Part shown: positions 3,325 to 8,737 of the stretch, piece by piece
Layout: the number at the start of each line of letters is the position of its first letter
How positions within the stretch are numbered: position 1 is the stretch's first letter
Source: an uncultured Opitutia bacterium
GTDB lineage: Bacteria; Verrucomicrobiota; Verrucomicrobiia; Opitutales; Opitutaceae
DNA: 64,000 bases
Direction of reading: 5' to 3'
Assembly: GCA_903859715.1 (NCBI GenBank)
Contig: CAIONS010000051.1
Span: 1 to 64,000 of the forward strand
Notes under the pieces: model-generated
Seen by the model: the letters and a program-made list of their open reading frames with translations, nothing else
What the model was told of the DNA's origin: nothing
The model's database searches: none
Made by a program: the position numbers and the translations under genes

Positions 3325-5070
3325 TCAGCCCTTTACGAGCGGCAGCGTGATGCGCATCGTGGTGCCGCCGGGGCCGGTGGAGACGAGACCGATGTCGCCG
3401 TGATGCGCCTGCAGGATGCGCTTGGCGATCGCGAGGCCGAGGCCGGTGCCGTCGGGGCGGCCGGAGAAGAAGGAGTCGAAGATGCGGTCGCGCACGGCCT
3501 CCGGGATGCCGGTGCCGGTATCGGCGAGATCGAGCGTGACAAAGTCTTCGGTCTCGGGGCCGAAGGAGAGGGCGATGGCGCCGCCGTCGGGCATGGCCTG
3601 CGTGGCGTTGAGGAGGAGATTGAGCAGCACCTGCTGGAGCTGGCCCTTGTTGGCCTCGACGACAAAGGCGGCGTCGGACGGCTCGTAGAGCAGGTGGACC
3701 TTGGCCTGGGCCAGCTTGGGGCGGACGAGCACGAGGGTGTCGGCGATGATGTCGCTGAGCGCCCAGCGGGAGTGCAGGCTGGAGGGCGCCTTGGCGAAGT
3801 TGAGCACGCGGGTGACGATGGACTCGAGCTGGTCGAGTTTTTCCCCGATGACGCGCACGTCGGTCCGGCGCGGGTCATTGACGGCGAAGTCGAGCCCGAG
3901 GCCGCCGTGGAGGAGCTTGAGCACGGTGAGGGGATTGCGGATCTCGTGCGCGATCTCGGCCGCGAGCAGGCCGAGCGTGGTGAGCTGTTCCTGCTTGCGG
4001 AGGGTTTCCTCGCTCTGGAAAACGCGGGTGTAGAGCCGGGCGTTCTGGAGGGCGACGGCGCCGAGGCTGGCGAGGGTGGCGCAGACGCGTTTCTCGTCAT
4101 TGTCGAACCGGTGCGGCCGGTCGGTGAACACGGCCAGCACGCCTAGGATCTCCTGCTCAAAAAGCAGCGGGGTCAGCAGGGCGGCGTGCAGGGTGGGGTC
4201 CTCGGGCAGGTCGGCGATGCTGTGAAAGTCAACGGAGCGGACGTCGGCGAACTCCACCTGTTTTTTCGTGTGGAGCGCGGCGGCGGCAAAGCAGGCGTGT
4301 TCGGACTGTTCGCCCTCGGGCATGACCGGGGCGCCGGGGGCGTCGAGTGCGCCGAACCGCACCGTGCCGCGGGCGGCGTCGTGGAGGTACAGCGCGCAGG
4401 CGCTGCCCTGCAGCATGCGCCGGGTGTCCCGGGTGAGGGTGTCGAGGAGTTCCTGGGACTCGAGCTTGGCCACGAGCGCCTGGCCGGTGGTGAGCAGGGT
4501 TTCGAGCTGGCGGGCCTTGGTCTGCAGGGCCCGCATGCGCCAGAGCTGCTGGACGATGAGCGTGGCCTCCTGGGTGAGCCGTTCGAGCAGAGCCAGGTCG
4601 GCGGGCGTGAAATGACCGGTCCGGTCGGCTTCCAGGTCGATGACCCCGATGACCTGTTCGCCATCGCGCATGGGGGCGGCCATTTCGCAACGGGCGGCCG
4701 GGCGGACGGCGATGTAGCGTGCCTCGATGGAGACATCGGGAACGAGCAGGGCGCGGGCATTGAGCACGCACCAGCCGGTGACGCCGTGGCCGAGCTTGAG
4801 GCCGAAGTCCTCGGCGCCGCTGGGCAGGCCGAACTGCACCTCGACCTCGAGGCGGCCGGTGCCGGGGTTGACCAGGGCGATGGAGCCGGCATCCGCGCCG
4901 AATGTGGCGACAAATTCATCCAGGATTTCCTTCAATGCCGCGCTGGGATCATCGGCCCGGCCCGCGAGCGAGGTTAGACGATACAAAGCCGGTAGCGCAC
5001 GGGAATCTTCCGATTGCGGAGGGCGGATAGCGGAAACCGGATAGTCGGAGAGTTGCGGGCTTGGATCCAC
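3325..5070 (-). CDS. GAF-domain sensor histidine kinase
   Basis: H-box AAEIAHEIRNPLTVLKLLHGG, N-box NLLLNATQAMPDGG, G-boxes DTGTGIPE, GTGLGLAI; GAF-like N-terminal half; true start uncertain because the N-terminus overlaps a repeat. Confidence 0.88.
   Translation of the reverse strand: MDPSPQLSDYPVSAIRPPQSEDSRALPALYRLTSLAGRADDPSAALKEILDEFVATFGADAGSIALVNPGTGRLEVEVQFGLPSGAEDFGLKLGHGVTGWCVLNARALLVPDVSIEARYIAVRPAARCEMAAPMRDGEQVIGVIDLEADRTGHFTPADLALLERLTQEATLIVQQLWRMRALQTKARQLETLLTTGQALVAKLESQELLDTLTRDTRRMLQGSACALYLHDAARGTVRFGALDAPGAPVMPEGEQSEHACFAAAALHTKKQVEFADVRSVDFHSIADLPEDPTLHAALLTPLLFEQEILGVLAVFTDRPHRFDNDEKRVCATLASLGAVALQNARLYTRVFQSEETLRKQEQLTTLGLLAAEIAHEIRNPLTVLKLLHGGLGLDFAVNDPRRTDVRVIGEKLDQLESIVTRVLNFAKAPSSLHSRWALSDIIADTLVLVRPKLAQAKVHLLYEPSDAAFVVEANKGQLQQVLLNLLLNATQAMPDGGAIALSFGPETEDFVTLDLADTGTGIPEAVRDRIFDSFFSGRPDGTGLGLAIAKRILQAHHGDIGLVSTGPGGTTMRITLPLVKG
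5011..5046. repeat. R1 repeat copy 1 (CGATTGCGGAGGGCGGATAGCGGAAACCGGATAGTC)
   Basis: Shares words with copies at 5121, 5671, 8556 and 8701. Confidence 0.8.
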
Positions 5071-5120
5071 GAGGGGCAGAGTTGAGGGAGGGGGCGGGAG
5101 ATGGCCAGATTTCCTTTGAA

Positions 5121-5153
5121 TTGCGGATTTCGGATACCGGAAACCGGATAGTT
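5121..5153. repeat. R1 repeat copy 2, left flank of four-helix-bundle gene
   Basis: TTGCGGATTTCGGATACCGGAAACCGGATAGTT; inverted partner at 5671-5703. Confidence 0.85.
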
Positions 5154-5201
5154 GATTTCAGATCGTGAAGCTGGGCAATCAGGGCCTTGAAGCCTCCGGC
5201 G

Positions 5202-5558
5202 CTATTTTCTACGGCGGGCAGTTTTTATGGATGCCACCGTGATGGCCAGAATCTCCCCGCCTTCCTGCATAAGACCGGCCAATCTCTCTCGTTTCATCCG
5301 GTGGGAATCGATCAGGAGCTCCATCCAAAGCAGGGATTCGTCGGTCTCTTCCTCCACGATACCCATTTTTGAGATGAAGTCCGCGGTGGATCTGGCGCGA
5401 ACGGCTGCCCTGTAGTTGGCAGCGACCGATGTACCCGAGCGCAGAAGCTGAAGGCCAAGCGTTTTAGCCGCCATATCACGGGGAAGGGCATCGACTACAT
5501 TGATCACGCGAAGGGCATAAGCCTTGGTGCGGGCCTTGAATTCCTCGCGGGTCATCAT
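5202..5558 (-). CDS. Four helix bundle protein (TIGR02436 / 23S rRNA intervening-sequence protein family)
   Basis: MMTREEFKARTKAYALRVINVVDALPRDMAAKTLGLQLLRSGTSVAANYRAAVRARSTADFISKMGIVEEETDESLLWMELL is family-typical. Confidence 0.85.
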   Translation of the reverse strand: MMTREEFKARTKAYALRVINVVDALPRDMAAKTLGLQLLRSGTSVAANYRAAVRARSTADFISKMGIVEEETDESLLWMELLIDSHRMKRERLAGLMQEGGEILAITVASIKTARRRK

Positions 5559-5670
5559 CTGCAGGCTATCCGTCCTTTGACATCGGCAATCCAAAATCAC
5601 CGTTGGAACCAATTGCCGGCGGATTACGAAAAGCTCACTGAGCTAAAACCGACCCCGACTTCTTCCGGAA

Positions 5671-5703
5671 AACTATCCGGTATCCGGTTTCCGGAATCCG
5701 CAA
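5671..5703. repeat. R1 repeat copy 3 (inverted), right flank of four-helix-bundle gene
   Basis: AACTATCCGGTATCCGGTTTCCGGAATCCGCAA; reverse complement matches copy 2 with GGATACC/GGAAACC words swapped. Confidence 0.85.
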
Positions 5704-8508
5704 TCAACGCGCCGCGGCGAGCGCCGCGGGCTTGATGATCTCGGCGAGGGTGTCGCGCAGGGTGTGCAGGCGTGTGTCGTCGATGGTGCGGGTGGGCTCG
5801 GAGCTCTCGATGTAGAACGTGTCGATGGCGACGCCGCGCTCGGTGCCGATGCGGGCAAAGGTGATGTCGAAGCCGTGGTCGGAGATGGTCTTGGCCAGCC
5901 GGTACAGCAGGCCGATCTGGTCGCGGGCCTGGATCTCGACGATGGTTCGGGCCATCGAAAGCTCGTGGTAAACCTCGACGGTCGGTGGAAAGGACGTGTG
6001 CAGCCCCTCGCTCGTGGCGGCGAAGGGCCGGGAGGAGGCGACGCGCTTGGCCTGGGCGACGATGTCGGGGTACAGGTCCTTGTTGGCCACCAGGGCGGCC
6101 TCGATGTTCCGGGCGAAGGTTTCCTGCGCGGTCGCGTTCTGGACGACGCCGCGGTCGGGTTCGACGACGTAGAAGGTGTCGATGGCGATGTGGTCGGAAC
6201 GGGAGATGACCTTGGAGCCGAGGATGGAAAGGCCGGCGACGCTGAAGGCGCCCGCGAGCTTGTAGAAGAGGCCGGCGCGGTCCCACGTGACGACGTTGAC
6301 GACGGTGAGCGAGCGGTTGAGGTCGTCCTTCCACTCGATGACCGGCTTGAGCGAGCCGATGGTGTCGGCGTTGGCGATGGACTTGAGCAGCCGGTTCACC
6401 ATCTGGATATGCAGGGTGATCTCCTCCGCATCGGTCTGGATGAAATACCGTTCCGGGAGCAGGCTGAAATGGGCCGCGATTTCATCGGAGCTGATGCCGG
6501 GGATCTTGCGGGCGATGAGGTCCTGTTGGGTCATTTGCTTCTTCTTTTCGTAACTGGCGAGGATGCCCTCGCCAAGACTCAAGCGTTCGAGCGTGGCGCG
6601 ATAGAGGCTGGTGTGAAGGGTGTCCTTGTAACTGTTCCAGAGGCTGACCGCGGTCCCCCGGGCGTCGCAGAACGTATGGACGTAGAGGTTGCGAAGTTGC
6701 TCGGCGTTTCCGACGAGTTCGGCAAATGCAGCGGCAGTCTGGGGATCATCTACATCCCGCTTCTGCCAGAATCGTGCCATCGCGAGATGATTTTTGATTA
6801 CAAATGAAACGAGTTCCCGGCCCTCGGGGGAGACTCCCAGCCGCTCCATGATCGGCCCGGCCAGGCGGACCCCGCTCTCAGCGTGGCCCTGGATGCCCTG
6901 GGCCTTGCCGATGTCGTGGAGGAGGAGCGTAAGATAGAGCAGGGCCGGATCGGTGATCTCGTGGAGGGCCTCGCGGTACTTGAGGGTGATGGGCTCGGCG
7001 TTGGTGAAGATGAGGTCGAGCTGACGGATCGCGTTGAGCGTGTGCACATCGGCCGTGTAACGGTGGTAATATTCGTGCTGCACCAGGCAGGTGAGGGCAT
7101 CGAACTCCGGGATGAACAGCCCGAGCACACCCAGCTCGTGCATGAGCGAAAGCGTGGGATAAACGGCGCCGGCCTCGGACAGGATGGCGCGGAAACTGGC
7201 GATGGCATCGGGTGAGCGCCGGACCTCCGGGGTCATCAGCCCGGGCGCGGCCTGGCGGATCAGCGTGGCCAGGTGGAAGTCCGGCTGGCAGCCGAGTTGC
7301 TGGCAGTGGCGGAAGACGCGGATGAGCCGCGCGGGGTCGTCCGCGAAAACCGTGGGCTGCTGGGCGGCGAGTTCCCGGCCGCGCAGGACGAAGCCGTCGA
7401 GCCGCCGGCTGTGGCGGAAACGGGCGGCGAGGAGGCTCTCGCGCAACGAAATCGGCCCTCCCTGCGCATCGCGGCCGATCGTGAGGGCGAGCCGGCTCTC
7501 CACGACCTTGGAAATGCGGAAGATGGACTGGGCCGCCCGGTAATAGTCCTGCATGAAATGCTCCACGCGCGGGAGCAGGTCGACCTCCATGTAGCCGAGG
7601 TTCTGGGCGACGCGGGGCTGGAGATCAAGGTCGAGCAGATCGGTGGCGCGGCGGCTGAGGAAGTGCAGCTCGTTGCGGACGCGAAGCAGGAAATCGTAGG
7701 CGCGGTTGAATTCGCGCAGTTCCTCCGCGCGGAGATAGTTCTGGGTGACGAGTTCCTCGATGTTGGCGATGCCGAGCTTCACGCGGGCCATCCACACGGC
7801 GTTCTGGTAGTCGCGCAGGCTGCCCACGCCATTCTTCACGTCGGGTTCCTGGAGGAAAACCGTGTCACCATATTTTTCCCGCCGGCGGGCCTGGTCATCG
7901 AGCCGCGCGGCGATGTAGCCCTTGGGGTTCTCGGCCGTGGCGAAGGTCCGGTAGGCTTGGGCGAATGTCTCGTACAGTGCGGTCGATCCGGCGACGAGCC
8001 GCGCCTCCAGCATGGAGGTGAGGGTCTGGATGTCCCGCCGGGCCTCGAGGAAGACTTCGTCCACGTTGCGCGTCGAGTGGCCGACCTTGAGCCCGCTGTC
8101 CCAGAGCGGATAGAGGATTTCCTGGGAAAGATGCTCCAGCAGCGGCTTGATGAAAGCTGGCCGGGTCTTGGCGGGGAAGAGGAACATCACATCGACGTCG
8201 CTCAGCGGGCTGAGCTCGCGCCGGCCGTAGCCGCCCAAGGCGAGGAGCGATACCGGCGCAGGGAGTTTACCGTAGGTGCGCGTGTAGCTCGCGATGGCGT
8301 GGTCGAAGAGCTGCGTGAGCATCGTATCCATCATCGCCGCCCGCGCCTGCACGATGGCCAGTCCGGAGGCGCCTGCCTCATGCTGCCGCCGCAGCGCGGC
8401 ATCGCCGGCCTGGAGGTAAGCCTTGCAGGCCGCGAGCCGGTCGGCGACGGGGGCGTCATCGGCGAAACTCAGGGGTACAGGCTCGGACTGCAGGGTGGAG
8501 ACGGACAT
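5704..8508 (-). CDS. glnD: [Protein-PII] uridylyltransferase / bifunctional GlnD
   Basis: NTase motif LALGGYGRRELSPLSDVDVMFLF, HD motif LLLHDIGKAQGIQGHAE, two C-terminal ACT domains; start at MSVSTLQ. Confidence 0.93.
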   Translation of the reverse strand: MSVSTLQSEPVPLSFADDAPVADRLAACKAYLQAGDAALRRQHEAGASGLAIVQARAAMMDTMLTQLFDHAIASYTRTYGKLPAPVSLLALGGYGRRELSPLSDVDVMFLFPAKTRPAFIKPLLEHLSQEILYPLWDSGLKVGHSTRNVDEVFLEARRDIQTLTSMLEARLVAGSTALYETFAQAYRTFATAENPKGYIAARLDDQARRREKYGDTVFLQEPDVKNGVGSLRDYQNAVWMARVKLGIANIEELVTQNYLRAEELREFNRAYDFLLRVRNELHFLSRRATDLLDLDLQPRVAQNLGYMEVDLLPRVEHFMQDYYRAAQSIFRISKVVESRLALTIGRDAQGGPISLRESLLAARFRHSRRLDGFVLRGRELAAQQPTVFADDPARLIRVFRHCQQLGCQPDFHLATLIRQAAPGLMTPEVRRSPDAIASFRAILSEAGAVYPTLSLMHELGVLGLFIPEFDALTCLVQHEYYHRYTADVHTLNAIRQLDLIFTNAEPITLKYREALHEITDPALLYLTLLLHDIGKAQGIQGHAESGVRLAGPIMERLGVSPEGRELVSFVIKNHLAMARFWQKRDVDDPQTAAAFAELVGNAEQLRNLYVHTFCDARGTAVSLWNSYKDTLHTSLYRATLERLSLGEGILASYEKKKQMTQQDLIARKIPGISSDEIAAHFSLLPERYFIQTDAEEITLHIQMVNRLLKSIANADTIGSLKPVIEWKDDLNRSLTVVNVVTWDRAGLFYKLAGAFSVAGLSILGSKVISRSDHIAIDTFYVVEPDRGVVQNATAQETFARNIEAALVANKDLYPDIVAQAKRVASSRPFAATSEGLHTSFPPTVEVYHELSMARTIVEIQARDQIGLLYRLAKTISDHGFDITFARIGTERGVAIDTFYIESSEPTRTIDDTRLHTLRDTLAEIIKPAALAAAR

Positions 8509-8555: not shown

Positions 8556-8592
8556 GGGAGATTTCGGATGGCGGATACCGGAAACCGGATAG
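8556..8592. repeat. R1 repeat copy 4, left arm of perfect 37-bp inverted repeat
   Basis: GGGAGATTTCGGATGGCGGATACCGGAAACCGGATAG; exact reverse complement at 8701-8737. Confidence 0.92.
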
Positions 8593-8700: not shown

Positions 8701-8737
8701 CTATCCGGTTTCCGGTATCCGCCATCCGAAATCTCCC
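8701..8737. repeat. R1 repeat copy 5, right arm of perfect 37-bp inverted repeat
   Basis: CTATCCGGTTTCCGGTATCCGCCATCCGAAATCTCCC. Confidence 0.92.

Follow-up and report, generated by a model that had tools for sequence, protein, structure and literature searches.

A PF05635-family gene enclosed by inverted arrays of 7-bp units is a candidate minimal mobile element

To our knowledge, genes of the PF05635 family, for which no function has been agreed, are common among bacteria, and heptameric intergenic repeats, described in several phyla, have no known source. In the 23S rRNA intervening sequences (IVSs) of Coxiella and Leptospira, an S23 ORF of the PF05635 family is enclosed by terminal inverted repeats, which pair into a long RNA stem; these IVSs have been called selfish and proposed to be mobile (PMC4990558). 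The heptameric intergenic repeats include GGGNATC in Xanthomonas and Nostoc, with a preference in Xanthomonas for four units and convergent pairs (PMC4692102), and TAACTGA (PMC4679880). In the Nostoc trnL intron, the P6b stem is built from heptamers, and one class of words has repeatedly been replaced wholesale by another (PMC4476775). Finally, Avd of the diversity-generating retroelements assists retrohoming. Avd and Xcc0516, which are relatives of the IVP proteins encoded by PF05635 genes, are pentamers of four-helix bundles (PMC10053308).

The locus described here occurs in a 64,000-nt stretch of DNA from an uncultured Opitutia bacterium; the whole of this stretch is referred to as the window. 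Its IVP gene scored 45 bits against the PF05635 profile (cut-off 33.8) and 71.3 bits against the TIGR02436 profile (cut-off 24), and the encoded protein matched the sequence of a solved structure, PDB 2rld, with an E-value of 2.5e-17. Judged by these matches, the gene is a genuine member of the family. PF05635 was the only domain matched in the protein; a Y1 (HUH) transposase domain was absent. As stated in the original prediction, the gene lies between inverted copies of a repeat, R1 (Table 1). The two arms are 34 nt each, have a complementarity of 91% and are spaced by 517 nt. Each consists of tandem 7-bp units of the form CGGANNN: CGGATTT-CGGATAC-CGGAAAC-CGGATAG in one arm and CGGATTC-CGGAAAC-CGGATAC-CGGATAG in the other, an order that bears out the reported swap of GGATACC and GGAAACC words. 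A perfect R1 hairpin without a gene was also found where predicted, its 37-nt arms matching at 100% around a 108-nt loop. Overall, the GGAWACCGGAWACCGGA pattern, allowing up to two mismatches, had nine matches in the window against 0.03 expected. The third arm, the 7-bp periodicity and the different arm sequences at the other IVP loci of this genome had not been noted before.

Table 1. Coordinates of the cassette and of associated R1 copies in the window.
Feature	Coordinates	Strand	Remarks
IVP gene (PF05635 / TIGR02436)	5202..5558	-	118 aa from ATG at 5558; sole gene of cassette
Heptamer arm, 3' side of IVP gene	5120..5153	+	G-rich strand inward
Heptamer arm, inverted partner, 5' side of IVP gene	5671..5704	-	Adjoins glnD stop codon
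Third R1 arm	5012..5045	+	Direct copy of 5120-5153; within N-terminal part of histidine kinase frame
Histidine kinase upstream region and GTG start	5046..5119	-	Probable weak remnant of an older IVP C-terminus
Left arm, gene-free R1 hairpin between glnD and valS	8556..8592	+	
Right arm, gene-free R1 hairpin	8701..8737	-	Loop 8593-8700

The gene beyond the gene-free hairpin is presumably valS, named from its own sequence. Like the 23S rRNA IVSs, the cassette has an S23-family ORF inside terminal inverted repeats; unlike them, it is located between glnD and a histidine kinase gene and not in a 23S rRNA helix. A predicted RNA fold paired both arms (z −3.9). Rfam matches in the region (MIR1437 and others) were under their gathering scores, were caused by the long hairpin and were rejected. 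The third arm is translated as part of the histidine kinase N-terminus; heptamer arms are similarly read as protein at the rfbB–rfbA site (L039/L053), at the N-terminus of RfbA and the C-terminus of RfbB.

According to profile searches, the window's genome contains six TIGR02436 genes, and IVP genes occur in 126 of 150 genomes of the host's taxonomic family, with up to 19 copies per genome. In the window's genome, four loci are enclosed by clear inverted arms built alike from different words (GGAGAAG, CGGATAC, CAAGNNN and TCGAANN), the arms of a fifth (L001) are degenerate, and no arms were visible at L006 (G000:C33:11103-11309). The L006 gene is a divergent, weakly scoring member and may belong to a different subfamily. 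We evaluated 154 IVP loci, comprising 76 from the host's family and 78 on named contigs, whose titles include Bacteroidota, Chloroflexota, Planctomycetota, Acidobacteria, Cyanobacteria, Omnitrophota, Clostridiales and Kaiserbacteria. At each locus, we took the best inverted match between the 300-nt flanks and set it against the 95% level given by 493 slid control intervals. This level was exceeded at 62/76 (p 1e-38) and 58/78 (p 2e-33) loci, respectively, or 120/154 together, in agreement with the expectation that most family members bear flanking inverted repeats; significant arms were not seen at ∼20% of loci. The best lag was 7 or 14 in 129/152 and 108/155 flanks, as compared to ∼9% of controls, and 8 in a minority. 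The arms usually contain four units. The G-rich strand faced inward at 76 loci and had the opposite orientation at 9, a stronger polarity than that of purines (70 versus 19). The order of units was complementary between arms beyond the common word (score of 20.4 versus 16.4 with units permuted; p 1e-14), an excess that is partly due to selection because the register was chosen as the best. All ten plasmid IVPs examined, nine cyanobacterial and one from Azospirillum, lie in arms of 7- or 8-mers. An 8-bp period was seen at L166, L170 and the plasmid locus L314, mainly in Flavobacterium. In the cyanobacterial plasmids of L310 and L314, the IVP genes are within CRISPR operons, in the cas6/cas4 and cas10/cmr2–cmr3 intervals.

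Hairpins between genes commonly act as transcription terminators, and the inverted arms might in principle represent terminators or chance matches. In the control test, the chance level was p 1e-38; moreover, the arms are hundreds of nucleotides apart with a gene between them, and they have a 7-bp period. The control and period tests thus refute this explanation, to which we attach a negligible probability.

To describe the relationship between arms and genes, we compared arm words with IVP sequences. IVPs at least 60% identical and at different sites had common arm words in 75% of 44 family pairs, versus 1–4% below 60% identity (Mantel 0.004); the independence of these pairs is limited because one subfamily dominates. 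In loci from different phyla, the correlation between IVP and arm word was 0.25, a value reached by 0/500 permutations. L110, L112 and L115, on contigs titled Actinobacteria, Methylobacillus and Deltaproteobacteria, respectively, encode IVPs 68–72% identical and have related TCAGC/CTGA words. At fixed sites, the arms of one locus were more similar to each other than the same arm was between orthologues (18.1 versus 14.3; pooled p 2e-5, per site p 0.055), by which measure paired arms are drifting together. Clear word switches were found at an NtrC-like site (TAAGC versus TCAGC) and at rfbB–rfbA (AGAGGCT versus GGGTNAT). The possibility that the arm word is the genome's commonest word was rejected: it is true in G020, G128, G142 and G071, and fails in G074 and G003. 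The original prediction had tied the gene to R1 itself. This link was too narrow because each IVP gene has its own heptamer word, as seen in the 154 loci; at the glnD–histidine kinase gap itself, the orthologous gene of a congener (G141) has GCGGATC arms and not R1, an outcome that the original prediction had named as refuting it and that does so as far as R1 is concerned.

The words of three IVP loci in the window's genome recur there as many gene-free inverted pairs. In random 20-kb stretches of 13 genomes with IVP genes, totalling 880 kb, 12 lag-7 hairpins were found, distributed over six genomes. By contrast, 707 kb of ten genomes without IVP genes yielded none (p 0.0009; the hairpins cluster, so a test by genome is weaker). 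The loops of most R1 hairpins are unrelated to IVP and to one another. Descent from an IVP cassette is demonstrated for one hairpin only, described below, and is unproved for most of the others because their loops are without likeness to IVP. Palindromes of a second family (CAGCCTCCTTACGTCGGCTGCTAC) occur inside several R1 hairpin loops or beside R1 arms (L021, L025, L026 and L032, in the window's genome).

The original prediction likened the cassette to REP/BIME systems. The resemblance holds insofar as the protein is encoded inside its own repeat pair and gene-free pairs occur elsewhere. More specifically, REPIN/RAYT systems (PMC3116915) are similar in layout and likewise have dispersed intergenic inverted pairs, in which every type of repeat is linked to a gene of its own and many copies are gene-free. 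Y1_Tnp genes are also present in the window's genome and most relatives. Nevertheless, the cassette is not a REP/RAYT system: the IVP protein is by family a four-helix bundle lacking the Y1 domain, its gene is inside the pair and would move with it, and the arms are tandem 7-mers instead of short REP palindromes. A RAYT was also rejected as the driver, as Y1 genes occur in IVP-less genomes too, including those that yielded no heptamer hairpins. It is therefore highly improbable that the cassette belongs to a known REP/BIME system moved by a RAYT (Y1) transposase.

One IVP subfamily, with the arm word GAGTAGC/GTAGCGG, was found at three unrelated junctions: pheS–pheT (L059, L064, L069, L074, L077 and L097), gatA–gatB (L065, L100 and L105) and gyrB–gyrA (L060, L091 and L103), where we take the host genes to be those named on the basis of their sequences. 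DNA homology across the junctions spans 424–441 nt at 71–81% identity. It extends from 66–76 nt before to 42–65 nt after the profile match, that is, from arm to arm; in the pair L065/L103 it is in two pieces, split by an insertion. No flanking ORFs match across the three junctions. Two of the three are filled in G125. The pheS–pheT junction is filled in at least 16 genomes, always with a co-directional IVP gene, and most genomes have no IVP gene at these operon junctions. Within a single genus, this junction is filled with 437 nt in G037 and is an empty 10-bp gap in G093; the 10-bp gap was found in further genomes too. No target duplication was evident between G037 and G093, species whose divergence is too large to be sure. 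The ∼430-nt unit encodes IVP alone, and no transposase was recognised in it. Finally, the gatC–gatA junction of L105 (298-455) contains both arms together with about 27 codons from the start and a few from the end of this same IVP. Judging from its sequence, this ∼160-nt hairpin is an internally deleted IVP cassette. In the pheS–pheT gap of G071, G052 and G015 (L328, L333 and L345), there are other gene-free inverted repeats, apparently with other periods, such as CGCGGATGACGCGGATGAACGCGGAT.

The description of the locus as a repeat-borne cassette is strongly supported by these arm-bounded copies at unrelated sites, together with the inverted flanks found at most IVP loci. The unit resembles insertion sequences with MITE derivatives: a single gene is enclosed by terminal inverted repeats, one copy is internally deleted, sites occur both filled and empty, and homology between copies is limited to the element. 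It differs from them in that it has no recognisable transposase, its termini are tandem heptamers that vary by subfamily, and a target duplication was not recognised. The heptamer repeats of Xanthomonas and Nostoc and the TAACTGA repeats share the 7-bp units; unlike the cassettes, they were described without an associated gene family or a defined mobile unit.

Among the longer repeats of many genomes, heptamers form the most abundant class, and polymerase slippage has been proposed as their source (PMC4679880). Accordingly, slippage and template switching by host polymerases could make heptamer arrays in intergenic DNA where IVP genes land or survive, playing no role in moving or keeping the arrays. 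The joint drift of paired arms at fixed sites and the mostly unrelated loops of the R1 hairpins are consistent with such passive passengers. By contrast, this explanation does not account for an arm word that tracks the IVP subfamily across sites, for arms and gene being homologous as a single unit at three junctions, for the lack of heptamer hairpins in samples from IVP-less genomes or for the consistent inward polarity. We consider it quite unlikely.

Overall, comparison of the loci demonstrated an arm–gene–arm unit, its dispersal, empty sites, a deletion derivative, linkage of word to subfamily and gene-free pairs in the same genome. Because there are arm-bounded copies, an empty site, a deleted copy and word linkage, and because heptamer hairpins turned up in random samples of genomes with IVP genes and in none of those without, we conclude that the window probably contains a copy of a minimal mobile element that is widespread and consists of an IVP gene in two inverted arrays of about four 7-bp units with the G-rich strand inward. 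We assign a probability of roughly 60% to this reading, including the following mechanism. A single strand, either RNA or displaced DNA, would fold such that the two arms form a stem. The IVP protein, as a relative of the four-helix-bundle pentamers Avd and Xcc0516, would bind the stem of its cognate heptamer and recruit replication or repair enzymes of the host, by which the unit would be copied. The copy would enter the few bases separating a stop codon from the next start codon, and gene-free hairpins would be mobilised in trans. That movement is brought about by the IVP protein is our inference; the element was not found to have a nuclease or polymerase of its own, and we know of no catalytic domain in IVP. 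The predicted fold is homologous to that of Avd; unlike Avd, the window's protein has no cognate reverse transcriptase in its genome, and such a partner was rejected as no RVT_1 was found there (assembly 97.8% complete).

In G142 (L048, G142:C91, at the site of the L038/L040 group), the orthologous IVP gene, with an identity of 50–73%, mostly 66–73%, has the same neighbours and is inverted between them, as if by recombination across its arms. IVP codons are under purifying selection. This selection, with the long retention at fixed sites, is consistent with an RNA-level device in which the IVP-bound stem processes, insulates or stabilises operon transcripts, past spread of the cassette having occurred by ordinary recombination. 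The location of cassettes between co-directional operon genes and the predicted RNA fold also fit, and the Coxiella IVS stem, with its S23 ORF, is cut by RNase III (PMC4990558). This explanation is unlikely: most genomes have no IVP gene at these junctions, one orthologous copy is inverted, and the arm-bounded copies at three sites are left unexplained. By analogy with the 23S IVSs, a role in RNA processing could exist alongside the mobility of the proposed element.

The pieces of this system (S23 ORF stems, heptamer pairs and REPIN/RAYT) are known singly. In the literature searched, which did not extend to preprints and most subscription papers, nothing connecting S23/IVP genes with heptamer repeats was found, and to this extent the connection is new. 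We regard the element as a new kind because it lacks a defining feature of each known kind. Its nearest kin are the IVS elements, with which it may be placed if these count as an established mobile kind. It differs from them in its location at protein-gene junctions, gene-free brood, deletion derivative and arm-bounded copies at several sites, and possibly in its subfamily-specific heptamer arms.

The cassette would explain the orphan gene family as well as bacterial repeats of a puzzling kind. It ties PF05635 genes to heptamer repeats and predicts that the protein binds its cognate arm word, that junctions fall at the arms and that hairpins are lost where IVP is lost. Should the protein be the driver of movement, this would represent mobility without a recognisable nuclease, related to Avd of diversity-generating retroelements, and would bear on the origin of the rRNA IVSs. 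More tentatively, and with less confidence than in the element itself, we suggest that bacteria contain a class of mobile elements without a transposase. In these, a four-helix-bundle protein resembling Avd would itself confer specificity and mobility; it would recognise the hairpin of its own heptamers, as RNA or single-stranded DNA, and rely on the polymerases of the host. Such elements might be the source of most dispersed bacterial heptamer hairpins, including Xanthomonas GGGNATC and Nostoc P6b, with the 23S rRNA IVSs as an rRNA-resident branch.

We also compared the region behind glnD in 12 genomes. The IVP gene was present in the window's genome, G151 and G141. Eight congeners share the gene order and lack IVP, among them G124, in which the end of GlnD is 95% identical. 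In the twelfth genome, the histidine kinase is missing from this position. In several IVP-less congeners, the histidine kinase upstream region still resembles the IVP C-terminus (G124: 47 versus 13 ± 3 for shuffles); the remnant is clear in congeners and has a p of 0.02 in the window's genome. The pattern of presence and absence and the C-terminal remnants therefore indicate a long history of occupation and decay; loss of IVP explains this pattern better than recent gain. In the congener gaps L189, L193, L195, L196 and L198, the GTG start of the histidine kinase and the region upstream of it seem to descend from the final ∼16 codons of an IVP gene.
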